Shown here: positions 9,145 to 64,000 of the stretch, in pieces
Layout of the letters: the number at the start of each line of letters is the position of its first letter
How positions within the stretch are numbered: position 1 is the stretch's first letter
DNA from: Styela clava
Taxonomy: Eukaryota > Chordata > Ascidiacea > Stolidobranchia > Styelidae
Length of the DNA stretch: 64,000 nucleotides
Direction: 5' to 3'
Assembly: GCF_964204865.1 (NCBI RefSeq)
Contig: NC_135262.1
Coordinates: 4,278,001 to 4,342,000 of the forward strand
Notes under the pieces: model-generated
What the model saw: only the letters and a program-made list of their open reading frames with translations
Told to the model about the DNA's origin: nothing
The model's database searches: none
Position numbers and translations under genes: made by a program

Positions 9145-10761
9145 ATGGCGGCGGCAATGGCATTCGATGAGTACGGGAGACCGTTTATCATCGTCAGAGA
9201 TCAAGAAAGTAAATCTCGGTTAAGTGGACTGGAAGCAATTAAATCTCATATTTTAGCAGCTAAAACTGTAGCCTACACTGTCCGTACATCGCTTGGACCA
9301 AATGGCCTAGACAAGATGATGGTGTCTCCAGATGGAGAAGTCACTGTGACAAATGATGGAGCCACTATTTTAGATAAAATGGACGTTAACCACCAAATTG
9401 CTAAATTAATGGTGGAACTGTCAAAATCTCAGGATGACGAAATTGGAGATGGGACAACAGGGGTTGTTGTTCTGGCTGGGGCTTTATTGGAACATGCAGA
9501 ACAGTTGATTGATCGCGGAATTCATCCGATTCGAATTGCTGATGGTTACGAGGCAGCCATGCATGTTGCAATTAAAAAATTAGATGAAATCGCTGACGTT
9601 TTCAAAGTTGATCCAAACGATTCAGAAAATTTAGTCAGAGTTGCTATGACAACATTGGGGTCTAAAATCGTTAACAAGTGTCATCACCAATTTGCTAAAA
9701 TTGCTGTCGATGCAGTAATGGCTGTTGCAGATTTCAAACGTAAAGATGTCGATTTCGAATTGATCAAAGTAGAAGCGAAACAAGGAGGAAAATTAGAAGA
9801 CAGTCAACTCATCAAAGGTGTTCTTGTTGACAAGGATATGAGTCACCCACAGATGCCAAAAGTCATCAAAGGTGCCAAACTGGCTATCCTAACTTGTCCA
9901 TTTGAACCTCCAAAACCTAAAACCAAGCATAAGCTCGATGTTACTTCTGTGGAAGACTACAAACAGTTGCAAGAATATGAAAAAAAGAAGTTTCATGAAA
10001 TGATAAAGCAGGTGAAAGATACTGGAGCAAATTTAGCAATCTGCCAGTGGGGATTTGATGATGAAGCTAATCATTTATTACTGCAGAATGAATTGCCTGC
10101 TGTTCGATGGGTAGGAGGACCAGAAATTGAGCTGATCGCCATAGCAACTGGGGGTAGAATCGTACCTCGATTTTCAGAGCTCACTCCTGAGAAATTAGGT
10201 CATGCTGGACTTGTTCGAGAGTTGTCATTTGGAACTACGAAAGATAAAATGTTGGTTATTGAAGAATGTAAAAATACAAAAGCAGTAACCATTTTCCTTC
10301 GTGGTGGAAATAAAATGATTGTCCAAGAAGCCAAGCGTTCTGTTCATGATGCTCTGTGTGTAATTCGAAATCTTGTTCGTGATAATCGTGTTGTGTACGG
10401 AGGAGGTGCTTGTGAAATCGCCTGCGCAGTTGCAGTGTCTAAAGAAGCTGAATTAAACCCATCTTTGGAGCAATACGCTATGCGTGCCTACGTACAAGCA
10501 CTTGAGTCTGTGCCCCTTGCATTGGCAGAAAATAGTGGTTTGAATCCAATTCAGACCCTTTCTGATGTTCGTTCCAAACAAGTGAATGAAAGTAACTCGA
10601 ATCTTGGAATCGATTGTTTAAACAAAGGCACAAATGACATGAAGGAGCAACATGTTATTGAAACGCTTGTAGGAAAGAAACAACAAATCTCACTTGCAAC
10701 ACAACTTGTACGAATGATTCTGAAAATTGATGATGTCAGATCACCTGGTGAACAACAGTAG
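9145..10761 (+). CDS. CCT5: T-complex protein 1 subunit epsilon
   Basis: This is a subunit of the cytosolic TRiC/CCT double-ring chaperonin, which folds actin, tubulin and other proteins using ATP. The single 538-residue frame is close to the usual CCT5 length. Group II chaperonin signatures are intact: [12 protein letters not shown] from residue 48, TNDGATIL at 69-76, the nucleotide-binding GDGTT at 101-105, and VYGGGACE from 417. The N-terminal FDEYGRPF and the stretch around [16 protein letters not shown] identify the epsilon paralogue. The start ATG sits in a good context (gcgaaaATGGCG). No introns interrupt the coding region, and no poly(A) tract or flanking direct repeat marks it as a retrocopy, so a functional, intron-poor native gene is the simplest reading. 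An ATTAAA at 10833-10838 may be the poly(A) signal. Confidence 0.97.
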
Positions 10762-32474: not shown

Positions 32475-33593
32475 ATGGAAACAAAAGATTTGTTAATCCT
32501 TGAACCGTTTTATGGTGGATCACACAAACAACTGATAAAAACGATAACAAATTCGTTGGATAACCACAATGTAAAATATGATTTATTCACACTACGAGCC
32601 AAGAAATGGCCTTGGAAAGCAAGATGTGGAGCTATTATGCTGTCGGAGGCCATTCCAAGAGATGTCTCATACAGAACATTATTCTGTAGTTCGGATTTGA
32701 GTCTCTCAGAATTTGTCGGAATAAGACCGGATTTTTATCACTGCCACAAGGTGGTGTATTTTCATGAAAACCAACTTGTATATCCAGTGCAGAAATCTGA
32801 AACTCTCGATTTTCAGTTTGGATATAACCAAATTTTGACAGCTCTTGCCGCAAATGAAATATATTTTAATTCTTTATACAACTTTCAATCGTTTGTTATG
32901 AATATAAATGAATTTCTACGGAGAATACCCGAATATAAACCCAAAGATATCAAAGAAAAAATAGAATCAAAAAGTAAAGTTTTACATTTTCCTCTGACAT
33001 TTAATAAAGAAATTTCAACTTTAAAAGTAAAAGAAGATTCAAATGAAAAAATACTTCACATTGTTTGGGCCCATAGATGGGAGTATGATAAAGATCCATT
33101 GACATTTTTTAAGACTTTGTTCGAGTTGCAAGAGAATGATTTCAAATTTTGCGTCTCAATTCTGGGACAGGGGTTCACCGATGTTCCGAAGGTTTTCACA
33201 GAGGGCAAGGAGAAGTTGAAAGAGGGTACAATTCAAAACTGGGGGTATGTTGAGGACAGGAACAAATATTTATCCATTTTACAATCGTGTGATGTCGCTA
33301 TATCAACAGCAATCCATGAATTCTTTGGAGTATCTATGATGGAATGTTGCTATAGTGGTTGTTATCCATTATGTCCAAATAAACTATCTTACCCAGAAAT
33401 ATATCCTTCTGAATGCCTTTACAACACGCCAAGGCAATTGTATAAAAAATTGAGAGAATTTTGTTTGAAACCCTGGCTTGCCTCAGAGTTGCATAAAAAG
33501 TTAAACATTGATTATTCAAAATATTCATGGGATAAAATGGAATCTGATTATTTAAACATTTTGAAAGTAGGATCAAAACGTCAATGTACATGA
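32475..33593 (+). CDS. GTDC1: tRNA-queuosine mannosyltransferase family protein (GTDC1/QTMAN)
   Basis: The 372-residue intronless frame matches GTDC1, which in vertebrates transfers mannose to queuosine in tRNA-Asp (QTMAN). The N-terminal domain shows LILEPFYGGSHKQL (residues 7-20) and the conserved LRAKKWPWKAR. YFHENQLVYPV and FQFGYNQILTALAANEIYFN follow. The C-terminal GT-B half carries EFFGVSMMECCYSGCYPLCP from residue 282, with the E-x7-E pattern of GT4-like nucleotide-sugar binding, then LSYPEIYP. I start at ATG 32475; an in-frame TAG at 32457-32459 excludes an earlier ATG. Human GTDC1 is longer (about 458 aa), but both conserved halves are present here. Acceptor-like TTATTTGTAG ends at 32443, 31 nt before the ATG. 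It probably acts in the cytosol on tRNA. Confidence 0.93.
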   Translation: METKDLLILEPFYGGSHKQLIKTITNSLDNHNVKYDLFTLRAKKWPWKARCGAIMLSEAIPRDVSYRTLFCSSDLSLSEFVGIRPDFYHCHKVVYFHENQLVYPVQKSETLDFQFGYNQILTALAANEIYFNSLYNFQSFVMNINEFLRRIPEYKPKDIKEKIESKSKVLHFPLTFNKEISTLKVKEDSNEKILHIVWAHRWEYDKDPLTFFKTLFELQENDFKFCVSILGQGFTDVPKVFTEGKEKLKEGTIQNWGYVEDRNKYLSILQSCDVAISTAIHEFFGVSMMECCYSGCYPLCPNKLSYPEIYPSECLYNTPRQLYKKLREFCLKPWLASELHKKLNIDYSKYSWDKMESDYLNILKVGSKRQCT

Positions 33594-38684: not shown

Positions 38685-41600
38685 ATGTCTGTAAAGAAAA
38701 TTTGCTGCATTGGGGCTGGTTATGTAGGTGGACCAACATGCTCTGTGATTGCAAAAGAATGTCCCCATATTCGTGTGACAATCGTGGATATAAATGCAGA
38801 TCGTATCGCTGCCTGGAATTCAAATGAATTGCCGATTTATGAACCGGAACTGGAAGACATTGTGATGTCATGCCGAGGAAAAAATTTGTTTTTTTCAACA
38901 GAAGTAGAAAAAGAAATTATTGAAGCAGATTTAATTTTTATTTCTGTGAATACGCCAACAAAAACGTACGGTGTAGGAAAAGGAAGAGCAGCAGATCTGA
39001 AATATGTAGAAGCGTGCGCAAGGACAATTGCTGCAGTTTCAAAAAGCGATAAAATTGTCGTGGAAAAAAGCACAGTACCAGTCAAAGCAGCAGCAAGCAT
39101 CCAAAGGATTCTCGGTGCCAATATGAATTTAGATATTAAATTTCAAGTCCTTTCAAATCCTGAATTTCTTGCAGAAGGGACTGCAATTCAAAACTTGCTT
39201 CATCCAGACAGGGTTTTAATAGGTGGAGAAGAATCTAAAGCTGGGAAAAAGGCAATTGAAACCTTATCTGAGGTATATAGCAATTGGGTGCCTAAAGAAA
39301 AGATTATAACAACAAATACATGGTCTTCGGAATTATCGAAATTAGCTGCAAATGCTTTTTTAGCTCAAAGAATCAGCAGCATTAATGCTATGAGTGCAGT
39401 TTGTGAAGCCACAGGGGCTGACGTGGAAGAAGTTGCGAATGCCATAGGAATGGATACAAGAATCGGCAATAAGTTTTTGAAAGCTTCGGTCGGTTTTGGA
39501 GGAAGCTGTTTTCAGAAGGACGTGTTAAATTTAGTATATTTGTGTGAAAGTTTGAATTTACCGAAAGTAGCACAATATTGGCAACAAGTTATTGAAATCA
39601 ATAATTATCAACGCAAACGTTTTGCTAGTGGGATCATAAATTGTCTTTTCAACACTGTATCGGGAAAGAAAATAACACTGTTCGGTTTCGCTTTCAAAAA
39701 GGACACTGGAGACACCAGAGAGTCATCTGCAATCTACATTTCAAAATACCTTCTTGACGAAGGTGCAAAGTTAGCAATATACGATCCAAAAGTGTCGAGA
39801 CGACAAATTATAAGTGATTTGAGCCATCCAACCATTTCAACTCCAGAAAAGGTAGCTGAGCTTGTTACTTCAGTAACAGACCCGTACGAAGCATGCAAGG
39901 ATTCCCATGCAATTGCAGTCTGTACTGAATGGGACATGTTCAAAGACCTTGATTATAAAAGAATATTCGATTGCATGTTGAAACCGGCATTCATTTTTGA
40001 TGGTCGTGGAATTCTGCCTCATGAAGAATTGAATAGCATAGGATTTCATGTAAGTATACTTATCGCTTAGATCTGTGTAAATTTGAGTAACTATCAGGTT
40101 GAATAATTGTCTTGGTAAATCATTAAAAGTCTTGCATTGTTTAACACAGTGGTTCTCAACCATTTATGCTGTGTGACCCCTCTTCTGAAGGTATTTATCA
40201 CTTATGGTCCCATGTTTATCATTCCAGTGGTATTTATAGTGTTATGTTGACTGTTGGATCCCATTATGTTCAAACAATTCATGCTCAAAAAAGTGAAAAC
40301 ATTATGTTTAAACAATTCATGCTCAAAAAAGTGAAAACATCCTGTGAAATAATTTTATCAAGTCATGCAACTAGAAGAACAAGGAGTTTTCTTGTAAAGT
40401 GGAAAGTAAAGTCAGTTTTGGGCCCACAATTGGGGCCTCCCTCCAATGCTCTGTGGCCCCCGGATGGAACATTGATGTCTCCCAAATATTTGAACTACAA
40501 TTCAGGGACGTTCTAACCGGTCAATTTGATTGAAAATTTAATATATAAAATATTTTAAATTCCCGATTATCAAAATAATTTAGAATAGTTATATATATTA
40601 AAATCATTACAGCAAATGAAGTCTCACAGTCCGATCAGAAAAGCTCTCTTTCAATTTTTGAAAATAATAAAAAAAAAAAAAGATTTGTGACTCTATTTGG
40701 AATATATACAATATTCAATGATATTATTTTATAATCTGTTTGGGAATGATTGTTCTTCCACCTGCAGCCACCCCGCTGCAGCTTTTTGAATAAGAGTTAT
40801 GCTATTCATGCGTCGTATTATTGACCCTGCTTTGATCAATACATATTCAACGATATTATTTTCTAGAAAAAATATCTGTTATGTTGCAAAAAGACATGTT
40901 TTCTCGATTAACTTATCAAGCATTTACGATTATATATATACAGCTATTATTATTCAAATCACGAAGGTTATTTTCGAAGGCTTATTAAATTTTTCTTTTA
41001 TCTTGGCTCAATAAATTGCACTTCTGTGGATTTAAATAATCCTTATTAGAAATTGACCACCGATCTACTTTAGTAAATTTAATCCTTGTTTTAATATTTT
41101 ATTAATTAAAATTGTGATTTATTCCACATCGCCCTCGGTCATGCCTAAGATTGTGATCATAATATATCATTAAATGAGTTATGTTTATAAAAACCATTAA
41201 GGAGTGGCCACCTGATAATAACCATGGAATGCAATATTGTAAACTAAAATAGAAAGAGAGCTTCCTAGAAATTGGTCATTTCCAGACTCTAAATATTTTG
41301 AAATCAAAATACCAAGGACTTATTTTGTCAATTATCTTTGCCAATGTTTAGATTCCAGTGTCTGTTATTGTTTTTAGGGGGAGCAGTTAATACCTGTTCA
41401 GACTAACAGTCCCCACAGTGTGATTTGTATTCAGTAAAATAAATTTATTGTGTAAGGAACAGTGATGAGGAAATTTCTTGCCAATTCTACTAAATAAAAT
41501 TAATTTTGATACATCAAAATATGCCTTATTTACTTCTTAATGCTTTATTTTTCAGGAGCGACATTTGACATTATTCATATTGAAATTTGTTAAACTCAAG

Positions 41601-49287: not shown

Positions 49288-50463
49288 TAGGGCCCGACCG
49301 ATACTGCCTTTTTGAACCGATACCGATACTGCTAGTTTTCCAAAACTAGGCCGATAAGCCGATAACGATGTTTCTTCACATAAAAAAATTGCTACAAGTA
49401 ACAAACAACACTCTGAGAATTCTGTGTTTTTCTTGCAAAAGAAATAAATGTTGAAACTCATGCAATGATTATAAAAAAATGCAAATTTGTGCATCACTAA
49501 GTTTTTTTAAGAATAGCGATTTTCAACGCCAGCATTTTCTGTCACGAGAAGAGTCATTATTTTCTGGCTCACAAGTTCATATATTTGTGGCAGCATTTCT
49601 GTTCTGAAATACTTCTCAGTCTTTAGGGCGTAGCGAGGTTCAATGGTTTCTATTAGCCTGCGGAATCCATCATCTTGCACTATTGCAAATGGCCTGTTGT
49701 CAGTGGCTATCATCTCCATTATTATTTTATCAAGTGATTTCGTTCTTGCGTCATTTCCATGCCATTTATTAAATTTATCCATTATGTGTTCCCATGAAGG
49801 TTGCCGATTAAACTGGGAAGCTTCAGCTGGCCTTTTTCGCGTTAACTGCGTCTGCGAAATCTCATCATACTTGCTCTTGTGTTTCGATCTGAGATGACTC
49901 CACAAATTACTGGTGTTTTTCTTTTTGGAATCGGCGGAACCTTGACTTAACAATGATGAGCATTTTTTACAAAGTACACCATCACTGTGGCATACAAAGT
50001 ATTCCCATACTTTGCTCTTACCGCTAGAACCAGCCATCTATAACATACCAATACAAGAAGTTAAACAATACCTTCAACGACTAAAGCGCAAGGGAAATCA
50101 AGCGCCGTGTAAACTACGCGAAAATTCTCTATCTAGCGTATATTATTTGACACAAATAAGCCGTTCACGTGTTCTATTGCTTCGATTTGTGAGCCACCAC
50201 GCTGCAAACTTGCTTGCAAAGTGTGAAATCCCGTGTCGCAATCGTCCGTGAAACCGCTTTTGATAAGAGAGAAATAGAAATAGTGAAGAAAAAGAGTTTC
50301 ACGCAGAACCGCTCTCGAATTAAACAAGCGATAAAACTGCTTTCCCGGCGCAATTTTGACACTTTGGCAGTCACGTGATTAGCCGATAACTATCGGTAAA
50401 ATTAGCCGATACCGATAGTTCAAAATTTGTGAAAAACAAGGCCGATATATCGGTCGGGCCCTA
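49288..50463 (-). mobile_element. hAT element (1,176 bp) with BED-finger ORF, perfect target duplication
   Basis: Both ends read TAGGGCCCGACCGATA inward, with many subterminal CCGATA/TATCGG motifs. Flanks 49280-49287 and 50464-50471 are both ctttctat. It retains one intact frame (49507-50037, minus) for the transposase N-terminus and lacks the catalytic part, so it is an internal-deletion derivative. Confidence 0.92.
49507..50037 (-). CDS. truncated hAT transposase: BED zinc finger plus start of catalytic region, 176 aa
   Basis: The frame begins MAGSSGKSKVWEYFVCHSDG. It shows a BED finger: the aromatic VWEYF, CKKC at about 23-26, and NLWSHLRSKHKSKY with paired His. Then PFAIVQDDGFRRLIETIEPR, the hAT block that follows the DNA-binding region in ZBED-like proteins. 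It stops before the D-D-E catalytic and dimerisation parts. The start and the ORF are undamaged, and the element has identical target duplications, so it may be young. If expressed, it would be a DNA-binding protein without transposase activity, possibly able to compete with full-length transposase for element ends (inference). Confidence 0.8.
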   Translation of the reverse strand: MAGSSGKSKVWEYFVCHSDGVLCKKCSSLLSQGSADSKKKNTSNLWSHLRSKHKSKYDEISQTQLTRKRPAEASQFNRQPSWEHIMDKFNKWHGNDARTKSLDKIIMEMIATDNRPFAIVQDDGFRRLIETIEPRYALKTEKYFRTEMLPQIYELVSQKIMTLLVTENAGVENRYS

Positions 50464-50810: not shown

Positions 50811-53800
50811 ATGTCGGTGACGGAGCAGGACAAACCAGAGGATTCTTTGTCTCAAGATGGCGTTTATGTAATGTCGGCCTGGGGAAAACGACAAATAGTT
50901 TTGAATGGATATCTGTACCGAAAACAAAAAGTTATAAAACATAAATCTTATTGGAATTGTGTTTCTGAAGCAAAATATAAATGCAAGGCAAAAATTCATG
51001 TCAGCGAGGATGGAGCGGCTACACCAACCATAACACGAGCACTTGAAAATCACTGCCATGATCAACTTTTACATAAGATAGAAGAGAGACTAGCCGTCAG
51101 CAGGTTAATATTTTATGTTCCTAATTATATAAGAAAATATATAAGTTTTCTCTTTATTTAAATCACTGGTTCTTAACCGCCGGTCCGCGGACTGGTGCCG
51201 GTCCGCGGCAACCTTGCTGCCAGTCCGCCAAATATTTTCCAATATTAATATATTATAAGCAAATTGCAAAATACAGAGTGTTGACGGCATGTCCGTTAGT
51301 TTTTTTTTTTCTTCTAATTATTGATTCGTAGTACCGCAGTCTAACTGTTGGACCAGTAGTGGGCAAGATTTTCAGACCGGGGCCAACAATTTTGCCCATC
51401 TAGACTGGCGGACCATGGAAGTATGAAGTAAAATGTGAAAATTACATTTATGGACAATATTTGCAATGCTACAAAAGCAAAAGTAGAAAACGATAAGCCC
51501 CATGCCAAAACTAAATTTTATCGCAATCCCAACAAATTCCTTGAGCTATTTTTTGCTGAAACAGCAAAATTTGGATTTAGTTTGGTTGTAACACCAACAG
51601 GCGGGCCAGATTGAATAACCCAACAGGCCGATTCGGCCCGCGGGCCGTAGTTTACCCATGCCTGTGTTAGACTCGAACAACCAAACTTGGTGAGATGTCC
51701 TTTGCCAATTTCAAGCCCTGAACTACTTGATGTTCGTTAAGTCTATGACCTCATAACGGCGACTAGCGTAATAACGGAGGAGTTTGATAGCACATTCCGT
51801 GTTTGCCTGAAAATAAGACTGGGTTATATTTCAATATTTTTCTGAAAAAATAACACTGGGGCTTGTTTTCGGGGGATGTCTTATATTTTTATTTAATAAA
51901 AACAAAATTCAAAAGTAAAGAATTACGATAATTTCGTATATATATATATAAAGTATGAAAACAGATATCCATTTACTTATAAATATCACGTTTTTATTCA
52001 AAACAACTGCGACGTGTAGGAGAGATTTCTTGATATCGACTAGGTCAAAAAAAAGTTTGCGTTATTGACTAGATCCCATTTTAATAAGGGGGGGGGGCTT
52101 TTATTAAAATATTGCTTAAAATTCAGGCTAGGTCTTTTTTCCATGGTATGTCTCAATTTCGGGGAAACATGTTTCACGTTTCAAAAGAAACCCAGCGGTG
52201 AAAACCAATTTAGTGGTGTTTACAGGAAGAGACTGCTACTTCAACTTTATAACATACCCCGAAACGACCTTTCATGTTGCAGCAAAATTGACATGGATCA
52301 TGCGTAAACGAGCAAAAATCGAGAGGGATATTTTATTGAGCACTATAATAACTATTTGGAGCTAGGTTTCACTATTGCTCCCAGCAGCGAAAAAGTACCG
52401 CTTCCTATGTGCCTAGTCTGCGCCAAAATTCTTTCAAACGGCGCAATGAAACCCGCAAAGCTAACGAAATCGTGTGGAAGTCAACGCTCTACTTTGCCTT
52501 GCACAAACTTCATTAGAACTACGTTCAACACGTATAATATCAAAAAGACAGCAGCAAATTTCTCATTGAATTGGATTGTCTTCTTTTGCACCGCCTACTT
52601 TTGTCGTAATCGCATTCTTTTGATTATGTTTTGTGTTCATGACATTTTTGGTTAATTTTGAAGGTCCGCCAGTCCGCGAAATTTTTTTTGAAATTTTACG
52701 GTCCCCGAACTGAAAAAGGTTGAGAACCTCTGATTTAAACCGTTTCCCAATAGTTGAGAAATTCCGCTCCAGAACAAAGTTTTGTCAATCTTGTGGAGGA
52801 ATTTTGCATTGGCTTTGTATTCGCTGTACATTTTTCTAATTATGTTGGAATTATGGGATAGAGATCTGAGATATACTTTAAAAAAAACATCTTTGTACTT
52901 CTGAAAATAGCTTAATGTCTAATTGGTTGCTCATCAATTCATTTTAGACTGAAAATGAAAGTTTTAGAATCTGGGGAACCTGTGGCGAAAGCAATGAGAA
53001 AATTTGTTATTGAAGAACCAATTATTGCTGAGAAAGGAGAAGAGAAAGTACGATCTGCTATGAGAAAAGTGAGAAGAAGAGTTAGACAATCTCAGGTTTG
53101 TTTCTCTTTCGACAATTTATTTTCAAATTCACGGAAGAATTAAGGAGTTTTGTTGATAAAGTATTCAATGCTTTGTACCATTGCTGTATCATCATCGCAA
53201 AACATTTTAATTCTTTTTTTAGAGTAAAGTCCACATTGGTCCTAATTCTCTTGCTTGAATGAAAAATCTAGATGTGAATTTTTCAAATGGTCTGGAGAAG
53301 CAGTCATTCATAGAATAAGTTTATTGGCTTTATGCCAGTTATCTGGTTGAATATTGTTCACAATTTATTGCTCTCTACTCTTTTGATAGTGGTTTCCACA
53401 AGGCCAAATCTAACAAAAAGTTTCATACCGTTAGAATCATTACCATTAAAAAATATACGGCAAAAATTGTTTATTCAATCAGTTGGCTTGATTAATTACT
53501 AATAGATATCATTGCGTTTTGGTAAATCATGTTCTCTGAAATGTCCATATAATACATTCGCATTTCGACTTATATCTTATTATTTATTGTGTGTTCCCCT
53601 CAAAGATGGCAACAATTAATTATAACGATATGATGTTCAAGTAAATGTTTTGATATTTTTGCATGTTTTATGTGACAGTTACAAGTGACTTGCATCAGGA
53701 AATGCATGAGGTGACATGTTGACACTCACCAGTCATTGATTGAGAATTGATCATAAAATCTTCTCTTTGAGTTTCCTTTTCATTCAGTCTGTTTGTAGCC

Positions 53801-55538
53801 TGCACTGCAGCAAGGCAGAAGTTTTCATTTGCAGAAAATCAAATTTGAAAGTCTTTTGTGAAGCTTAATAAAGTAAAAATAACTTAGAAATTGAGATTCT
53901 AAAAGGTCTTACTTTAGTAAGAATAAAGATATCTTGATAATGGATATTGTAAAAACAGTTTTAGTTACAATAAGTTTGTAGCCTATTCAATATCTATTTA
54001 CCCAGATGTTTGAATCTTTTAACGTAATTTTCAATGATGCGGAATTTATTAAACATGTTTTTGGGGTCAGATTTTGCTTCTATTATCCAATTATTTCATA
54101 TGCTCTAGATTGATGCGATTCACTATTGTTTCCTTTTAATTAGATTGAGTGGATATGCTGGACTAGTGGTCAAAGAGTTTGAATTAATTGTGTTGGCATC
54201 GTAGATTGAAAATCTTGTGTTCAAATCTCATGCTCACCGCTTCAAAAAAAATTAGTAATGAATTTGGATGGATAATGCCAAACTGGAGTTACGGCTTTTC
54301 AAATATAAGAGTTCTTCGCATAGTAGTGGTTTCTCACGCAGAGTTTTGTTTGGAATTAAAGACAATTAAAATTAATTATCAAAACATCTGTTCAATACAG
54401 TATTGAATATCTTTGAATCCATTATGTTTGTTTGAAATTCATAAAATGTCAATGGTATAAAGTTTAAACAATGAAATGTTTCGTTTTACAGAGGTTATCA
54501 CTGGAAAACAGTGAGGAATCAAACAACACAAAAAAGAAATCTAGCAAAAGTAAAAAAGACGCCACTCTTGTCTATGATTGGGAGGGTATCAGTAATTCCC
54601 CATCCTTTATGAGAAGTGGATTTATGCAAAATCTTGGTTCAAAATATAAAAATTCCTCAAGTGAATCTTTGATTAAATCTGACAATTTAAACAGCGAATC
54701 AATATCGAACTTACCAAATTTGCAAGTTGAAATACAAGTACCAGAACCATATTCCGAGAACGATACGAACATGAGTGAATTAAGCGCATTCGAAGGAAGT
54801 TTGCAAGGCAAAGTAATCTTAGTCGCTGGTGCATCAAGTGGAATCGGGAAGGCTATTGCGGAAGCTGTTGCAAGAGCGGGTGCACACGTATGTGTTGGCG
54901 CACGAAGACAAGATAAACTTGCTGAAGTCTGTGAAAAAATTGACTCTGAAGGTGGTATTGTACACCAATATGAATTGGACGTAACGGATCGGGCTCAATT
55001 TTCTGAAGTTGTGAAAACTATTGAGGAACTTATGGGCCCGATTGATATTTTAATAAACAATGCTGGATGCATGTTTTACACGCACATGCACAATGCAATG
55101 ATGGATGATTGGGATAAAATGATTAATATTAATTGTCGTGGCGTAACTAACGGTATTGGGTGTGTTCTACCTGGAATGGTAGAAAGGGGGAAAGGTCATA
55201 TTGTTAACACATCATCAGATGCAGGCAGGAGAGGGTTTCCTGGTTTAGCGGTATACTCCGCAACAAAATTTTTTGTAGAAGGACTTTCTCAATCTTTAAG
55301 GCAAGAAGTAAAAGACAAGGGGGTCAGAGTAACTTGTATTCAACCCGGTGACGTTGCGACTGAAATTGGGAATTATACGAGAGATCTGGATGCCCAAGTG
55401 CAATACAATACAATGGGTTCAGCAAGTAAAATCCTTGACCCTGAAGACATTGGAAGGGCTGTCTTATATGCCCTTACTCAGCCAGATCATGTAGGTGTAA
55501 ATGAAATTCTTATAGAGCCCACAGAAGCTCCAATCTAA
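50811..55538 (+). CDS. FLYWCH zinc finger fused to short-chain dehydrogenase/reductase, three exons, 495 aa
   Basis: Exons: 50811-51103, 52948-53095, 54492-55538; the joins are phase 2 and phase 0 and give one frame. Residues 29-83 are a FLYWCH finger: LNGYLYRKQK, then YWNC (W48, C50), C58 in YKCKAKI, and the closing HCH (81-83). Residues 98-147 are a Lys/Arg-rich linker (MRKVRRRVRQ). Residues 251-495 are a complete classical SDR: cofactor loop AGASSGIG (259-266), NNAG (336-339), catalytic Ser389 in NTSSDAG, and Y402-x3-K406 in YSATK, then QPGDVATE. The SDR should be an NAD(P)-dependent oxidoreductase; its substrate is unknown. FLYWCH fingers bind DNA or proteins and derive from Mutator-like transposases (family knowledge). 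If the SDR alone is a gene, it could start at ATG 54471. Intron 1 hosts a nested hAT element. Confidence 0.65.
51354..51664. mobile_element. nested hAT-type MITE (GGGCAA family)
   Basis: The left end is CAGTAGTGGGCAA and the right end (reverse complement) is CAGGCATGGGTAA. Flanks tgttggac and tgttagac agree at 7 of 8. The interior is about 310 bp and is shared with 62138-62445 and 63330-63620 (for example ATGCCAAAACTAAATTT). Confidence 0.8.
51797..52172. mobile_element. nested CCGTGTTT inverted-repeat element
   Basis: It starts CCGTGTTTGCCTGAAAATAA then GAC and ends GTCTCAATTTCGGGGAAACA. It is a third copy of the family at 14938 and 23055. Confidence 0.65.
52293..52500 (+). pseudogene. hAT transposase N-terminal remnant
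   Basis: The frame reads LELGFTIAPSSEKVPLPMCL then VCAKILSNGAMKPAKLTKSC. The pattern GFT......P.C..C...LSN.AMKP.KL is the modified BED finger found at the start of ZBED5/ZMYM6-type hAT transposases. No catalytic part remains open. It belongs to the element at 51164-52732. Confidence 0.75.
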
Positions 55539-57533
55539 TTTATGGTATTTGACAACCTTTCCGTATCTGAGCGTTTGTTTTTCAGATATGTTTTTAAGTT
55601 TACTTAGTCCAATGTATGCTGTTCCTGCCAGACTAAAATCAAGCCGAAAGGCTGTTTCAAGCATTAGTTGAAAATAATATTAAATTCTGGGTGCCAATAA
55701 TATTGTGTTTTGTGACAAAATCATGATACATAAACTGCATGAACTGGTATATAAATCGTGTTTTCTTTTGTTAACTAAACTGCTTGTATATAGATTGTGA
55801 TAGCCAAATGTTTTTTATGCATGGAATATATTTGTGAGGTCAACTTTTCGCAGTTACATATAGACGATAAATTATTCCAGAATTTTAATAAAAAGTGTGT
55901 TTTTGATTTTAGCGCTTGTGGGAATTATGGCATACCGGTACTTGAATTATTTTATTTACTGATTTCCAACAAATGTTAAACTGACTTATATCATATAATC
56001 AGGGAAATCACTACGAAATGGTTAAATTAGATGTCAGTTTACGTATAGTCCAATGTATTTTTCTGGTTTTGCTTTGAAATCGTGATATAATGTGGTCTAT
56101 TTTCAAACTACTTGGTAAATTGTTTTTGATGTACGTAGTCCAATTTTGATTTTTAAGCTGTTTTTCTTCAGCAATTATTCAGTTTACTCCAGATCCCAAG
56201 TTTTTATGAATGGAGGAATATTGAATAATGTTTATTCAGAAGATTGATTAGTTATTAAAGTTTTAAAATATATATCATACCAAACTAATGTTTCGTCTCT
56301 TAAGAAAATACTTTTGTAGTGTTATTATTGTATTTTGAGGCTTTCATAATTATGTTCATTCATGGAATACCTTCTAATAAAAGCATTATTAAATGCATTT
56401 GTGTAGTTTGTAGGAATTATATCTAAACATTACTGTAACTACATTTTTAGCACTTGACCTTAGAGATGGGATAGGGAATTTTTTCATTATTTTAATGAAT
56501 TAGAAAATTATAAATTGAAAAAAAAAGGATGGGCATGAAATGGAGTTGCAAAACTTTCTGCCAGCTCCATTTACAACAAAAATCCATGGCTTTAGTCCCG
56601 TCCGAATACTCCAGTAACAAGGCAGCATTTACCTGATTAAGTGCGCCTGACTTGGTTTCTAGTTAATACTGGACTGTGGTTTGCTATGGAATGATTCATC
56701 TTATTTTCAATCTCAGGGTTTATATAGAAATTCTATCAGCTTGGTAAACCAAGTATTGCAAAATGGATCTTCAAATATTGTACAATCATTTCTACCTTTT
56801 TTTCTTATCTCCAAGTTATTTATTCCTCACATTCTTGGTGCAGATAAAAATAGTAGGCTATTCAAATTATCATTCAGTAGATGCTTTTCATTCTCAAATT
56901 AATTGCATAGACCTGAGACAATTACAAAGTTATCTATACCCATACTTGTCCTGGACATACAACCGGACAAGAAACAGTCTACCATAGGATTAAGCCATTT
57001 CATCAGCCTTGCTCAGGATAAATATAAAAAACCTATCTTGATTGTCATTAGCAAATATGCTATACATGTTGATTATATTCTTATATTATAAGCGGTAGTA
57101 ATGAAAATTTGATTAAGTTATTATAAAACAACGATTACGGTACTTGTAATATGAACGAGTGTTTTCTTCTAACATTGATTTGGTTTTGACGTGTATGGGC
57201 CAAATATCAAAGTTTTTTATTGAAAAATTTTGAGTTTTGTTTTCCAATAATCCAGGCCTCCTTGTAAACATAGGCCATTGCTTCAAAAACGTTTTTGATC
57301 TATTCAAGCATTATTAAAATTATCATCATTCATTTCTCATTTTCGTTTATTTTTACATATTGTTGAATCACTCAACTCATCAAAACAGTTTTTTTGGGGG
57401 ATTCGTTACCATGGGAATCGAAATCTTCATCAAAAATTGTTTTTGTGATAATCTGTTATATGTTAAACTATTATTAATTGAATTCTTTCAATGTAGATTA
57501 ATTGATAGTTTAATTAACTGTATTCGCTGACCC
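55539..57533. other. FLYWCH-SDR 3' UTR and intergenic
   Basis: AT-rich. TAATAAAAGC holds a strong AATAAA poly(A) hexamer at 56376-56381, about 840 nt after the stop. No other gene or repeat boundary is recognised. Confidence 0.5.
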
Positions 57534-60500
57534 ATGAAGGTCATTGAATGCAGCAATATGAACGATTCATTGCAGTCTTACATTGCGAAACATCCTATTG
57601 AATGTATGTTCTTCAGTGAATTTCATCATTTGCAAGGACCCAAGATAACTTATCAGGTATTTAACAATGGAGTGGACCTATAAATCGTTTTGTGAATATT
57701 ATGTTGTTATTGTTCTTCTTGGTATTTTTCTTCTTATGGTTATGGAAAAATCGTTTTTTTCTTCAACTCCTGGACCAATTGCTTTGGAATTTTTAGTGGT
57801 TAGAGATTGTGTTTTTCATATTTAAGCATTGTTTTGTTGTTTCTTGAACATTGTCCATGACTGAATATTATAAGGTTGAAATATGTCTCAGTATTTTTAA
57901 TGTGTTCTGTACAATAATATAAAAAAAGGGAATATTGAATGTAGAAGTAAAATTGTTGTATAAGTTCAAGTTTCGTCTCTTGTTTTTCAAAAATCTGATA
58001 ACTTGAACAAATTTTCATGATTGTAAAACATCTACTACATCTAATATTGGTCTAACTATCATTAGCTCTGGAATATAGTTTTCTGATCAGTGATGTTGTC
58101 CTTCCTATTGTTATGACTTGATTTCCTTCTTTGCAATAAATCATTTGATATGATATTTTAATTTCAGTATCCTGATGGATATTTTAACCAACAAGAAGGA
58201 TTATTTGAAGAAGTTACGAATTATATCATTCCTAAACCAGAATTACAAGAGAAATTGACAACTGTGTTGGTATATTTTGTAATTTATTTTCCTTGAAATG
58301 AATGAAATACACACAAAATTTGGTCAAATAACAGGGAAGAATATCTCAAGCCCAGGGGTGTGCAATCTTTATTACATGAAGACCACATTCAAATAACTGG
58401 AAGAAAACGTGGCCCGCACCTTTATTTAACATAGGCTTTAATGTAGTTGCATGCACAAAAAGCTAGCTAGCTGTTAGGGCATTGTAACGTCGTAAAAATT
58501 GGTCTCGGGTATAGGCTTTGCAACTCTAAGGTATTGGGGTTACTCGCTCATACCAGATAAAACTAAATTAAAACTGCGTTTCCCGGGCCGCACACAATCC
58601 AAAATTGGCATGTCTCCGCAGGCCGCACAATTTTTCCCGGTGGGCCTCAATTGGCTTGCAGGCCACAGGTTGCACAACCCTGCTTCAGCTTGTTCTGAGC
58701 TGTAAATGGGATTAAAATATTTTTGTTTAATCAAATTTTCTGCAATACACTATGACCAAGCTATTCCTAGATTCTGACTATCGTAGAGAATTGTGGTTTA
58801 CTATAATTGGTGGTATTCAATCAGAGTCTGATTTGAAAGGGTGTACTATTTGGAATCTGGATTCAGTATTTGGGACTTTGAGAGAGTTGGGAGTCCAAAT
58901 TTTTATTGGTTAAAATAGTAGTTAAAATAGTTTCTCACATTTGTAAGCTGTAGTGAGTTAAGATTTTGTCAATTCAGACCCTTGACTTAGACCTGCATTT
59001 TGAATCTCTGGAGTGAGAAGAAACTTTTTTCAGACAAAAAACGTCCTAACTATGTATTTTCATAGGGCTATTCTGAAATGAAGGTAGCTGTGTTTGCTTC
59101 TCTTTAGCTATCATGCAGCATTATTAAAAATGTGACTATAACACGCAGTAAATATCATTTGTCTATAATTAATACTGTATTTAGGAATGTAGGGAAAAAG
59201 AAAGTGATTGGATGTCCAGTATGTATCGAGGGATCTCATTATCCAAGAAATAATTTCATCTTTAACTTTGGTCTGGTGCTCGATAGTAAACATAAGAGTT
59301 CTCCTTGTATTCCAATGATCAAACAACTCTCAAAATATATGTCAGAACTTGAGAAGGAGAATGGCTTCGTTTCTAATGAAGAGACTAGAGAAATGATTCC
59401 AAGTAAGAAACAACCCTTAACTGTAAATCTGGTTTGAAAGAAATTTAGGACTTCTGCTCAATTTAACTGCCAATAAGAAATAAAAACCATCGCATTTTAA
59501 GTCTTTTTCATAAATAAACTGAAAAATGGGCGCTCCAGAAGTATGTGTACCAATATGGAGGTGACTAATTTTGTTTGCCTATTTTACATCCAAGTTATAT
59601 AAAGTGACTGAAACTTGTGGGCAGGGGGTATATTCACTTGGCTAACACAGACAATCCCTGACTTGTAATAGAATTAAAATAAAGAAAATCGGAATAAAAT
59701 TATGGCCTAACCCTAACATGGTGCACATACTACGGGAGTACTCAAAAATATATTTGGCCCTGTGCAGACAATACAGCTAGTTATGTTATTGTTATGTTAA
59801 GTATATATCTTGATTTTAAACAAAAAAATAAGTCTCATTCTTTCAGGGTGTAAGAATTTGGTAGGTTTTGCATAAACATAGATTCTGGTTATTTTAAAAT
59901 ATTGTATCCGTAGATCTATATCCAAACCCTCGTTTAAAGTACATTTATGAAATGTCCCAAAAATAGCCAAATTAATATTACATTCACGATACAAACACTC
60001 ATTTTACAGTCGTATGAAGCAGATCTCATATTTTGGAGCGAAATGTGTGTGCATAATAATGCAAAATAGCCTGCTCCTGTTTCTTTCCCGCGGAGCACTA
60101 TAATCCGGCCCGCGACGCTTCACTAAATTATAGTAACAAAACATCCGTTTTGACGAATATATTCTTTAGACTTAATTATATTATAACCCAACAATTATAT
60201 AATTCACAATTACTCGTTTAATGAGCATATAATTTAATTATAATTAGGCAAATGGCAACAAAACGCGGAAAAGTTAATTCTAAGTGCAAAGGGTTCAATG
60301 GCGCTGAAAATATTCAAATGGGATTTTATGAGATGCAATGAGGAAATAAATCTATATTCTATTCGAGAGATGTATCAGTGCTTGATTTTTATTATAAAAA
60401 GTACCATCCGTTCGAAATTTTCAACTTTCTAAAAATATGTGCGACCCGTCAATGACTTGCAACCTTAATTTTGGCCCGCGAGTGACAAAAGGTTTCCTCA

Positions 60501-63500
60501 CTGCTGTACTCTATTGGTTTGATTGTAAAACAATCACCTTTGAGGTTTATTACCATTACAGATTACATTCCTACATTTTTCTAGATATTCTGCGCGATAT
60601 GCTTGAAGAACTAAATACAAAAGGAAGTTGCTGCACAAGGGTTAATGATAACACAACTTTATTTTTAAAAGTATTTCCCCCCACAACCCTTCCTCCTGTA
60701 GTAAAAGATCATGATGTGCCGATACTGATGGTATCGATAGATGAATTCATGCCAGGAGGATGGGATTTGACCACAGAAAGGGTAAGATTGTAGTTAATGT
60801 GAATTTTGAATATTCCATAGTTAGTGGGACCTCCTGAAGTATGCGCACCAAGATGGCGCACAACCTGAACTCAGGTTGTGTACCAGGTTAGAGTTCAGGT
60901 TACGCGACATTTTGGTGTGCATACTTCAGGAGTACCGTATTTTTTTTATATTTTATAAGGTTTCCAATCTCCACTCGTGAGTTAATAATTAAACATGGTT
61001 TTGTAATTTGGCTTACAAGGAAGGTAAGAAATGCTCATGGATGTGAGCTTTGAATATTTCATGGTTGAAAATTGGGTACTTCTATAGTGTGTTTACCAGG
61101 TTAGGCCATAATTTTTTACCGATTTTCCTTATTTTAGTTCCCATTTTCCCATATTTTCAATGAGTTCTTGATAGAATAATCATTTGACAATAAATTTAGC
61201 ACATTCTATGAATTTACTATAAAATTGGGACATTTATCAGAAATGAAGAATATATCTGTATTTTCAGGGCTGAAAATTAGATTGCCAAACTGTTTGAACA
61301 TTTGCATTCATAATTAAATTAAATCACCAACCCATATTCTTTTTTTTTTCTGATACTGATTGCACGAGGACGTACCATCATCGCTTTCCTTTTTTTCAGA
61401 TTCTTCCATTCATTGATGGATTTCGTCATGTTCAGAAGATCGCATATTTAGCTGATGTTGATCCAAGGTTGACAAGAACTTGCATCAGGGATCTTGCATT
61501 TTACAGAATTGTCGAATTGATTTCTATATTTCAATATTCGAATACTTATGTGACAACATCAAATTTGTCGAGGTTTGATGATGAAAATTTTTCTTTTATG
61601 TATTTTTGTTAAAACTTACTAATTATTGGGTATTCCCGTAGTGTATGTACCAGGTTAGGCCATAATTTTATTCCGATTTTCCCTATTTTAGTTCTATTAA
61701 GCGTTTGGGGACTGTCTGTGTTAGCCAAGTGAATATACCCCCTGCCCATAGCCTTTCGTCCCTTTACACAACTTGATATAAAGTGGGTGAACAAAATTGG
61801 TATTATATTGGTACACATAATTTTGGAGCCAATTATTGGCAGTTTTGTCATTTTTATTCCAGGTCAGTGATAAGGTGATAAAAATACCACTTAATCATTT
61901 GATAAACCATGGTCGGATTCGGTTCCAAGTTGGGTATGTGGTTACCTAACCCAGGGGGGTGCAACTTGCGAGCCACAAGGAAAATTTGTGTAGCTCGCGG
62001 AGAAATGTCAATTTTGAATAGTGTGCCGTGCGACCTGCTGAATGAGTTTTTAATTTTGTTTAATCTGGTACGTACAAGCAATGCCAATTCGTTACAGTGG
62101 CCTAACAGCTAGCTTGTGCGAAGCGAACAACTCAGAGCAGGGGTGGGCAAGGTTTTTAGATTACGGGCCAAAAAAATTTCACGACCTAGACTGGGGTGCC
62201 ATGTATGCGTGACGTAAAATGTTACATTTCATGAACAATATTTACAGTGTTACAAAGCAAAGGTGAAAACAATAAGCCTCGTGCCAAAACTAAATGTAGT
62301 CGCAATCTCGGCGAATTTCTTGAGATATTTTTTAGCTTAAACTGCAAAATATGACTTTTCTTCGGTTGTGGCAGCACCAGGCGGGCCAGAATGAATTACT
62401 CAGCGGGCCGGATTTGGCCCGTTGGCCACAGTTTTCCCATGTCAACTTTAGAATGTACTTTTATTCACAAATAAACATTTCACCAAAAATTTTCAGGTTG
62501 ATGTCTGATAAAGCTCTTCAGACTGAATGTATTCAATATGTATCTAGACCTGGACATCCAAAACCAACACTGAATGATATTCTTGCGATTTATTGTGGTT
62601 TAACTCCCGGTGTAACTGTTGATAACTTATGTAGTCGACATCAGAAGGAATTGAATAAAGTTAATGAACAGTAAGTTCAATATGAAGTAAATTCTTTGGT
62701 GACTGTACATTTGAACCCACGTAGATTTGAACCCATGTGTACATTCACGGGTTCAATCTATGTGCAGGTGCTAAAACCCATGGGTTAGGGTTGGTATGAG
62801 TTCAAATATCCGTAAAACAAAAAAAAAAACTCCATAGGTGCAATAGTATGCAGGTGCCATTGTCGTGGGTTACAATGTACGTGGGTTCAAATGTAATGGA
62901 ACCAAATTCTTTATATTTTCATTATTTATTTAGGACACTCCATAACCCGCTGCTAAGCCACATAAACATTTTCAGGTTACAAATCTATTAAAAATTGATT
63001 GACTTGTTGATAAATTAGTTGAATTTGTTGTATTAGAAATGAATGATAATGTTCTTTTTCGCTACTAAATGGTAATTTTCATTCCTATTAAAACAGACGT
63101 ACCCATTCTTGCGAAATGAATTTCTTGTTTTTCTTGTAGTTTTTCGCTTGCACATGTTAATTCAAGGGCACTTAATGGGCCACCTAATATTTTTGTACAA
63201 CGAAAGTGGGCCACGAGAGAAAAAAAGTATGAGAACCACTGATTTAGGGGAAGATGAATAATGAGCTATTGTGGTTAACTAAAGCTGTTGGGCCTGGCAA
63301 AACTCTCAACTCCAGGTTGTGAGAAATTAGGACTCTGACTCCAAAAATTTTGCTCATATAGACTGGCGAGCCATGTAGGTGTGACATAAAAAGTTATATT
63401 TTTAAACAATAATTACAGTGTTACAAAAAATAAAAAGTGAAACAATAATCCTCATGCCAAAACTAAATTTAATCGCAATCTGAACAAATTTCTTGAGCTA

Positions 63501-64000
63501 TTTTCAGCTAAACATTAAAATTGGTTTCAGTTTGGTTGTGGCAGCATCAGTCGAGCCAGATTGAAGTAACGAACAGGCCAGATTTGGCTCGCGGGCCATA
63601 GTTTGCACATGTCAGCTCTAGCAGATTTGGCTAATGTCAGCTCTTGCAGCATCGTATTATAAAAAGACAAAAAAGAAATTAACAAACCATTTTTGTATTT
63701 TTTTCGACTTGATGAATAATCTTCCCCCTTTATTCTGAATAAATTGTAATAATCACAATTAAAATTGTTAGCGTCTGAAAATTTTATATACTTTATATTT
63801 GCATAGCTCAAGCACACAGTTTCTGTGCTCATTTGATCTCCACAAATAAACAATAAACCTCAACTCAACATCCTTGGTTTTTGGATATATTATCTAGCAG
63901 TTTCTAATAAGTCAAACATCACAATTTTCAGAAAATTAATTCAGTTTGGACTCATTAACAAATTAATTCGAAGAATCCACGTTTATCCTGTGAAAACCAG
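57534..64000 (+). CDS. NPRL2: GATOR1 complex subunit NPRL2, seven exons, 3' end outside window
   Basis: NPRL2, with DEPDC5 and NPRL3, forms GATOR1, the Rag GTPase-activating complex that inhibits mTORC1 at the lysosome when amino acids are scarce. Exons: 57534-57656, 58168-58265, 59185-59402, 60585-60781, 61400-61572, 62497-62670, 63932-64000 (cut by the edge). They join in frame to about 350 residues of an expected ~380. Signatures in order: IECMFFSEFHHLQGPKITYQ, IIPKPELQEKL, KKVIGCPVCIE, FNFGLVLD, LEELNTKGSC, DHDVPI, GGWDLTTERILPFIDGFRHV, FQYSNTY, YCGLTPGVTV and KLIQFGLINKLIRRI. The first ATG (57534) follows an in-frame TGA at 57528; ATG 57558 is an alternative start. The donor after exon 2 (ACTGT/GTTGGT) is weak but is the only one that keeps phase and family spacing. 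Introns 2-6 hold at least eight small transposons. Confidence 0.93.
58353..58682. mobile_element. hAT-type MITE (GTGCAA family)
   Basis: The left end CAGGGGTGTGCAA and the right end (reverse complement CAGGGTTGTGCAA) are inverted repeats, in NPRL2 intron 2. The flanks agree at only about 5 of 8. A truncated, inverted relative lies at 61951-62137. Confidence 0.7.
59528..59742. mobile_element. foldback element, 215-bp class
   Basis: It starts GGGCGCTCCAGAAGTATGTG, ends CATACTACGGGAGTACT, and lies in NPRL2 intron 3. Flanks gaaaaat and caaaaat agree at 6 of 7. Confidence 0.8.
60826..60936. mobile_element. foldback element, 111-bp class
   Basis: It forms a hairpin with GGGACCTCCTGAAGTATGCG and CACCAAGATGGCGCACAACC mirrored at the right end (ATACTTCAGGAGTACC). 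It begins 44 bp after the exon 4 donor of NPRL2. Confidence 0.8.
61074..61145. mobile_element. foldback element fragment
   Basis: GGGTACTTCTATAGTGTGTT then TACCAGGTTAGGCCATAATT matches the left third of the 215-bp class; the remainder is missing. Confidence 0.6.
61628..61830. mobile_element. foldback element, 205-bp class, 7-bp duplication
   Basis: It starts GGGTATTCCCGTAGTGTATG and ends ACATAATTTTGGAGCC. Flanks 61621-61627 and 61831-61837 are both aattatt. It lies in NPRL2 intron 5, 55 bp after the donor. Confidence 0.85.
61951..62137. mobile_element. GTGCAA-family MITE, truncated and inverted
   Basis: It begins CAGGGGGGTGCAACTTGCGA. It matches the reverse complement of 58353-58682 through AATCTGGTA and the GCTAGCTGTTAGG region, then stops against the next element. 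Confidence 0.6.
62138..62445. mobile_element. GGGCAA-family hAT MITE
   Basis: It starts CAGGGGTGGGCAAGGTTTTT and ends near GGCCACAGTTTTCCCATG. It aligns along its length with 51354-51664. Confidence 0.7.
62698..62903. mobile_element. 206-bp inverted-repeat element with perfect 9-bp duplication
   Basis: The left end GGTGACTGTACATTTGAACC then CACGTA mirrors the right end (reverse complement GGTTCCATTACATTTGAACC then CACGTA). Flanks 62689-62697 and 62904-62912 are both aaattcttt. It sits 27 bp after the exon 6 donor of NPRL2. Confidence 0.85.
63125..63243. mobile_element. hAT right-end fragment
   Basis: GGGCCACCTAATATTTTTGT and GTATGAGAACCACTG form a hAT-like right terminus; the left end is not seen. 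Confidence 0.5.
63330..63620. mobile_element. GGGCAA-family hAT MITE, decayed ends
   Basis: ATGCCAAAACTAAATTTAAT then CGCAATC, and GGTTGTGGCAGCATCAG, match 51354-51664 and 62138-62445. Both termini are degraded. It lies in NPRL2 intron 6. Confidence 0.65.

Follow-up and report, generated by a model that had tools for sequence, protein, structure and literature searches.

Proposed gene structure of the locus

The locus described here lies in a 64,000-nucleotide (nt) stretch of the Styela clava genome (C17:4278001-4342000, hereafter the window, with positions counted from its first letter), where three predicted exons on the plus strand join a FLYWCH zinc finger to a complete short-chain dehydrogenase/reductase (SDR) domain. 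Spliced in frame, the exons (Table 1; exon 3 spans 54492-55538) give 495 amino acids (aa) and a stop codon, 1488 nt in all. We read them as a single three-exon gene encoding a FLYWCH-SDR chimera, with a probability of roughly two in three, the mRNA being predicted from the DNA. A sequence-only reading of the same stretch had proposed this structure. Its splice sites and compatible phases (2, then 0) were recovered as GT..AG introns, and the residues that it named (W48, C50, C58, H81 and H83 in the finger; AGASSGIG, NNAG, S389, Y402 and K406 in the enzyme) all stand where it placed them.

The coding signal was assessed with codon usage trained on six genes of the window, the SDR itself included, and with length-matched random draws from its non-coding sequence. 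Nine of 60000 such stretches were open with a codon score equal to or better than that of exon 1, and none of 60000 was open with a score as good as that of exon 2. For the linker at the start of exon 3, 448 of 60000 stretches were open and 118 were open and scored as well; the coding weight of the linker comes from its open frame (448/60000), not from its codons. With training on five genes, the SDR excluded, exons 1 and 2 exceeded the 99th percentile of open stretches, and the linker fell in the range from the median to the 90th percentile. Neither Rfam nor a tRNA scan gave any match in the window.

Splice signals were scored with two approximate matrices, one standard and one softened for AT-rich DNA, and ranked within the window. 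By the standard matrix the donors of introns 1 and 2 were among the best 7.7% and 3.8% of GTs, and by the softened one among the best 1.3% and 0.5%; the exon-3 acceptor was in the top 1.3% of all AGs. With the softened matrix the donors scored 3.5 and 4.8 and the acceptors -0.4 and 4.5. These scores fall inside the range of introns inferred from homology at two loci introduced below: an SDR gene on contig C1 (gene A; donors 2.9-7.6 and acceptors 2.1-7.1 for three of its four introns) and the FLYWCH paralogue L056 (donors 1.7 and 0.0, acceptor -1.2).

No phase-0 frame opened by any of the 542 AG sites from 53096 to 63980 is longer than the 348 codons that follow the AG ahead of 54492. Five other sites combine a top-5% acceptor with a frame of at least 40 codons; their frames span 58-109 codons with codon scores of -8.7 to 1.1, and two of them sit in the downstream NPR2 exon. 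The 15 codons read through past exon 2 score poorly. Three observations favour the candidate junction 53095/54492: exon 2 ends at a good donor, the read-through is not coding-like, and 54492 begins the next good phase-0 exon. Phases, acceptor and donor on the DNA would fit a putative splicing of a retrogene to the exons of another gene.

Table 1. Parts of the candidate FLYWCH-SDR gene, in window positions.
Feature	Position	Strand	Description
Exon 1	50811..51103	+	Start codon, N-terminal tail, FLYWCH zinc finger (residues 19-83), start of post-finger helix; ends in phase 2
Intron 1	51104..52947	+	GT..AG; 1844 nt, of which 1569 nt are a transposon insert
Multi-copy transposon in intron 1	51164..52732		Imperfect terminal repeats; flanks ATTTAAAT/ATTTAAAC
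Exon 2	52948..53095	+	Basic region behind the finger, with MRKVRRR; ends in phase 0
Intron 2	53096..54491	+	GT..AG; 1396 nt
Exon 3, 5' part	54492..54770	+	93-codon linker, Ser/Lys-rich (KKKSSKSKK), probably disordered
Exon 3, remainder	54771..55538	+	Complete classical SDR domain, intronless, up to the stop codon

The FLYWCH and SDR domains

The Pfam family FLYWCH (PF04500) matched residues 19-83 over the full profile (1-62 of 62) with E 2.8e-13 and 50.3 bits (cut-off 23.6). W48 and all four zinc ligands are present; in a 9-row alignment W48, C50 and H83 are invariant, C58 and H81 are not. The closest solved sequence to exon 1 is human FLYWCH1 (2rpr, E 2.9e-5), and the same structure is the best PDB match of an AlphaFold2 model of this exon (mean pLDDT 78.8; E 6.4e-4, TMt 0.75), followed by a WRKY DNA-binding domain at E 0.13. 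By Pfam score, zinc ligands and modelled fold, the protein can be assigned to the FLYWCH zinc-finger family, and DNA binding is predicted. FLYWCH relatives were sought in viral contigs as well, and none was confirmed among 14 and 81 candidate stretches.

The second domain was recognized by Pfam adh_short (PF00106) at residues 254-443 with E 4.3e-59 and 199.7 bits (cut-off 26.6). Its motifs comprise AGASSGIG (259), NNAG (336), S389, Y402 and K406, with N361 completing the usual tetrad; in a 23-row SDR alignment, which took 22 of the 25 bacterial loci, the S, Y and K columns are invariant and N is nearly so. Clavaldehyde dehydrogenase 2jah is both the closest solved sequence (E 1.5e-52) and the best fold match of the exon-3 model (TMt 0.92, 42% identity). 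In that model the ten-residue blocks of the SDR core mostly reach pLDDT 90-99, one loop around residue 305 drops below 50, and the first 90 residues have low confidence (pLDDT about 30-50) and are probably disordered. Two arginines follow strand 2 (GARRQ; R285), as in 2jah, and arginine at this place suggests NADP(H) as the cofactor.

Pfam, fold, glycine-rich motif and N-S-Y-K tetrad place the protein among the classical SDRs, with enzymatic activity as a prediction. The claim that the SDR is catalytically complete holds at the level of its residues, the tetrad and AGASSGIG being intact. The analogy once drawn with HSCARG/NmrA-like regulators proved loose, and kinship with NmrA was rejected: NmrA (PF05368) reaches 15.1 bits where its cut-off is 27, and the catalytic set is that of a classical SDR.

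Relatives of the FLYWCH exons

A search of the assembly itself (376.6 Mb, 379 contigs) returned at least 86 FLYWCH matches, the window copy having the best score. Open reading frames (ORFs) were read at eight of these loci (L028, L033, L056, L069-L073), and four (L028, L056, L070, L072) entered the spacing and profile tests; left out were L033 and L073, of the same family as L028, and L069 and L071, altered or cut behind the finger.

Across the genome, the protein of exons 1 and 2 matches itself and one paralogue, L056 (C1:17595525), at 28% identity. The FLYWCH exon of L056 ends 15 residues past H.H in a codon split after AG (AG-N), identical to window exon 1, and 561 nt beyond it starts an exon-like frame with AMRRVRRKKHM (RRVRR). 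Since L056 shares the intron place and phase and then a similar RRVRR exon, the join of exons 1 and 2 is very probably real. The same order of finger and arginine motif recurs, intronless, in the Mutator-like ORF L028 and the FLYWCH ORFs L070 and L072, and 52 residues separate H.H and the arginine motif in the window, compared with 57 in L056 and 56, 52 and 58 in the others. Scored against a profile of the four FLYWCH proteins, exon 2 was equalled by 39 of 5000 shuffles.

L056 and L068 together (C1:17594025-17604000) represent a second FLYWCH gene of host type that contains an intron. Four FLYWCH matches fall in a 753-aa ORF that occurs in two copies (C14:9580923-9582191 and C79:17700-18968) and is perhaps a FLYWCH1-like host gene.

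Origin of the SDR exon

The SDR matches listed for the genome number 92; two C1 loci among them show 69-74% identity per exon, the rest reaching at most 38%. These loci, A and B, are tandem genes of five exons each, without a linker; the introns of copy A measure 1491, 858, 694 and 183 nt and are all of phase 0. The C1 genes begin with MSVSISDLH adjoining the SDR core, with in-frame stops upstream, and the 60 kb fetched around them gave no match to exons 1 and 2 below E 3.

All four introns of the C1 genes are absent from the window SDR. Over 251 codons it shares 67.7% and 66.1% identity with A and B, with nonsynonymous divergence (dN) of 0.26 and 0.28; fourfold sites differ at 54 of 77 and 53 of 75 positions, and synonymous divergence (dS) from either copy is not computable because the NG86 estimate is saturated. 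No stop interrupts the window SDR. An open frame with all catalytic residues at saturated synonymous distance points to long-lasting selection. In a tree built from 13 of the 20 fetched genome SDR loci, the C1 pair and 7 of the 25 bacterial loci, the window SDR, A and B form a clade with support 100/99. Taken together, the window SDR is probably a retrocopy of a five-exon gene, retroposition being the simplest account of the apparent intron loss.

The linker shows no similarity to the 5' flanks of the C1 genes, and the first 58 residues of exon 3 have no match in the genome except themselves; the linker may consist of 93 codons of formerly non-coding sequence. A recent bacterial transfer of the SDR was considered and is unsupported, since bacterial relatives (encoded by 25 of 77 candidate stretches in a pattern-limited search) reach 26-38% identity, compared with 66-68% for the C1 genes. 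SDR-like matches occur in 133 phage records, and the 20 of these that were listed show 31-40% identity, an ordinary SDR background; in viral contigs no relative of exon 3 was found among three candidates.

Alternative readings of the locus

Several observations weigh against the one-gene model or against the retrocopy origin of its third exon. Both donors rank lower on the standard than on the softened matrix, and the exon-2 acceptor is mediocre (top 16% of all AGs in the window). The codon score of the linker is ordinary among open stretches, being matched by 118 of the 448 open random ones, and three out-of-frame ATGs lie at most 140 nt upstream of the proposed start. Pairwise, exon 2 resembles the corresponding region of the Mutator-like element weakly, 376 of 5000 shuffles reaching the score. 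No poly-A tail is seen beside the SDR, the only A-run of 8 or more lying about 1 kb past the stop, although at such an age a poly-A tail and a target-site duplication are expected to have been erased. Other distant SDRs of the genome are open over most of their length, so that intron gain in the C1 pair is an alternative to intron loss in the window. In the paralogue L056, exon 2 runs into a stop two codons past a phase-0 candidate donor, itself weak (about 0.0), and may be the final exon of that gene; the window FLYWCH gene could accordingly end likewise, 16 codons beyond exon 2 in the stop at 53143. Beyond L056, 7 kb of downstream sequence showed neither an SDR nor another recognizable third exon. 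Finally, ATG 54471 has a good start context and would give an open SDR protein unspliced.

The last of these points bear on a model of two neighbouring genes, which we consider improbable: a FLYWCH gene ending at 53143 or in another 3' exon, and an SDR gene starting at ATG 54471, 54609 or 54771. ATG 54471 is in frame and carries adenine at -3, the C1 SDR genes start adjoining the SDR core, and a finish of L056 within exon 2 would suit this model. Opposed to it are the exon-2 donor, which is among the best of the window by the softened matrix, the 15 read-through codons, whose score is matched by 81% of open random stretches, and the position of 54492 as the first strong, long phase-0 exon downstream; moreover, exon 3 begins with 39 open codons that include no in-frame ATG.

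In a variant of the two-gene model, the 5' end of the SDR mRNA could be made by spliced-leader (SL) trans-splicing at the 54491 acceptor. SL trans-splicing is widespread in Ciona, where it applies to 11,797 of the 12,615 transcript models whose 5' ends are defined, and operons hold about 20% of the genes (PMC2760879); a lone acceptor ahead of a gene is therefore expected in Ciona. Operon genes there are defined by gaps below 100 bp and mostly abut (PMC2760879), whereas the gap here is 1.35 kb. In the S. clava genome a Ciona leader sequence was not found with fewer than two mismatches, although the leader may differ; with two mismatches it has 38 sites (control, 21), including 11 copies of ATTCTATTGGAAAAAGGTA. 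This sequence, at 11 genome sites such as L074, is probably a repeat, and the one copy examined was unlike a leader RNA gene.

A further reading accepts the fused mRNA and regards the finger as a passenger on a protein that acts in the cytosol as an SDR extended by an N-terminal tail. It is indeed the SDR that is strongly conserved and has its catalytic set complete, and no close relative of exon 1 was found in the genome by which its conservation might be gauged; in Drosophila, GFZF without its fingers rescues a mitochondrial phenotype (PMC6616599). We nevertheless find this reading quite unlikely, as exon 1 scores well by codon usage and has lost none of its four zinc ligands, its model fits the FLYWCH fold, and basic clusters follow the finger (RRR at 140, KKK at 161).

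We regard it as highly implausible that the locus belongs to a mobile element, or is a decayed copy, rather than being a functional gene: FLYWCH is abundant in the genome, the ORFs read include Mutator-like ones and transposons lie in intron 1 and upstream, but the exon 1-2 protein matches only itself and the 28% paralogue, a result by which a Mutator-like multi-copy element holding these exons was also rejected, the SDR is intact despite saturated synonymous divergence, and intron 2 is mostly single-copy.

The proposal of one readable gene made up of a transposase-type finger, a basic region and a complete SDR is supported: a paralogue of matching intron position and phase backs the first join, and the tests of frame, acceptor and conservation back the membership of exon 3.

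Transposons and neighbouring genes

The flanks of the intron-1 transposon resemble an 8-bp target-site duplication with one mismatch, and near full-length copies of the element occur elsewhere in the genome at 89-90% identity. By subtraction, intron 1 measured about 270 nt before the insertion. Only about 130 nt of intron 2 are touched by matches elsewhere in the genome. Upstream of the gene, window positions 49288-50463 hold a hAT-like element with 16/16 terminal repeats and a perfect 8-bp duplication, CTTTCTAT, which we take to belong to the hAT superfamily; its minus-strand ORF of 176 aa carries a BED zinc finger and is too short for a whole transposase of such a kind.

Several other genes of the window are single uninterrupted ORFs. 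The ORF at 38685-40070, presumably a UDP-glucose dehydrogenase, has no other match in the genome, and the TCP-1/cpn60 chaperonin at 9142-10761 has no other genome match above 51% identity. As neither has a close second copy, the only copies of these genes seem to be intronless, possibly through retrogene replacement. A QTMAN-type glycosyltransferase (32475-33593) adjoins a cytochrome P450 (34084-35667), both being single-ORF genes. Downstream, an NPR2 (nitrogen permease regulator 2) gene on the plus strand is represented by two or more exons at 60398-61609.

Precedents and proposed function

The individual parts of the predicted protein have recognizable counterparts. The FLYWCH/Mutator-like proteins of the same genome (L028, L070, L072, L056) share the finger, the spacing of 52-58 residues and the arginine motif, and human FLYWCH1 (2rpr) shares the fold; unlike the window gene, none of the FLYWCH/Mutator-like ORFs read contains an SDR. 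Clavaldehyde (clavulanic acid) dehydrogenase 2jah/2jap, the best match in sequence and fold, has the same ARR motif past strand 2 and is bacterial, without the DNA-binding part of the window protein. In host-transposase fusion transcription factors, the DNA-binding domain of a transposase is spliced to an unrelated host domain; here, in contrast, the partner is an enzyme that is catalytically complete by its residues and was seemingly joined by retroposition.

The route of origin has a parallel in Drosophila, whose alcohol dehydrogenase is itself an SDR. The gene jingwei is an alcohol dehydrogenase retrocopy merged with the upstream exons of another gene (PMC6881317, PMC4972966). It is a chimeric retrogene of SDR type, as the window gene, with its SDR free of the C1 introns, would probably be. 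Unlike in jingwei, the putatively captured exons in the window encode a DNA-binding fold, and the SDR copy is old (saturated), which dates the copy and not the fusion.

The closest precedent for the architecture is Drosophila GFZF, which combines four FLYWCH fingers with a glutathione S-transferase (GST) (PMC6657725). The part without fingers, the GST domain, suffices for mitochondrial rescue (PMC6616599), two isoforms carry upstream FLYWCH exons (PMC9540044), and the protein is reported as a transcriptional coactivator with a separate GST-dependent role (PMC6657725, PMC6616599, PMC9540044). GFZF resembles the predicted window protein in placing FLYWCH upstream of a metabolic enzyme domain within one protein. 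It differs in having four fingers and GST rather than one finger and an SDR, and no GST is found among the 16 Pfam families listed for the window; an independent origin is presumed.

No description of a FLYWCH-SDR protein was found in the literature searched, in which the two co-mentions are, by their listing, a proteomics and a transcriptome survey. Of 15 papers listed on tunicates none contains FLYWCH, and PMC12062965 mentions neither FLYWCH nor a dehydrogenase. The suggestion of a new architecture is therefore upheld for this particular pairing, undescribed as far as the searches reach, and not for the union of FLYWCH with a metabolic enzyme, already known from GFZF. Both the ingredients and the route have precedents.

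Under the one-gene model, exons 1 and 2 would supply the finger and basic helix of a host FLYWCH family that resembles Mutator-like transposases in their N-terminal part. An SDR retrocopy would have landed downstream of such a host gene and been captured by splicing. The FLYWCH fold and the Arg/Lys clusters may keep the protein bound to nuclear DNA or chromatin. Classical SDRs oligomerise, and the SDR domain here would likewise do so and bind NADP(H). It may locally reduce or oxidise a small carbonyl or alcohol; alternatively, the state of NADP(H) or substrate may govern binding to DNA or to a partner. We tentatively propose, as a possibility that we rate well short of even, a chromatin-bound, NADP(H)-dependent dehydrogenase, in which the finger brings an active SDR to chosen genes and the state of cofactor or substrate directly sets DNA binding or the local metabolite level: a regulator that senses redox state within one protein and arose through capture of a retrogene.

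Should the transcript prove real, the S. clava gene would add to GFZF a further, apparently independent fusion of FLYWCH with a metabolic enzyme, in this case a DNA-binding enzyme of jingwei-like origin. The case would then suggest that pairing a transposase DNA-binding fold with a metabolic enzyme is a repeatable route to metabolite-aware regulators, and the protein would be a compact object for a direct test of coupling between NADP(H) state and DNA binding.

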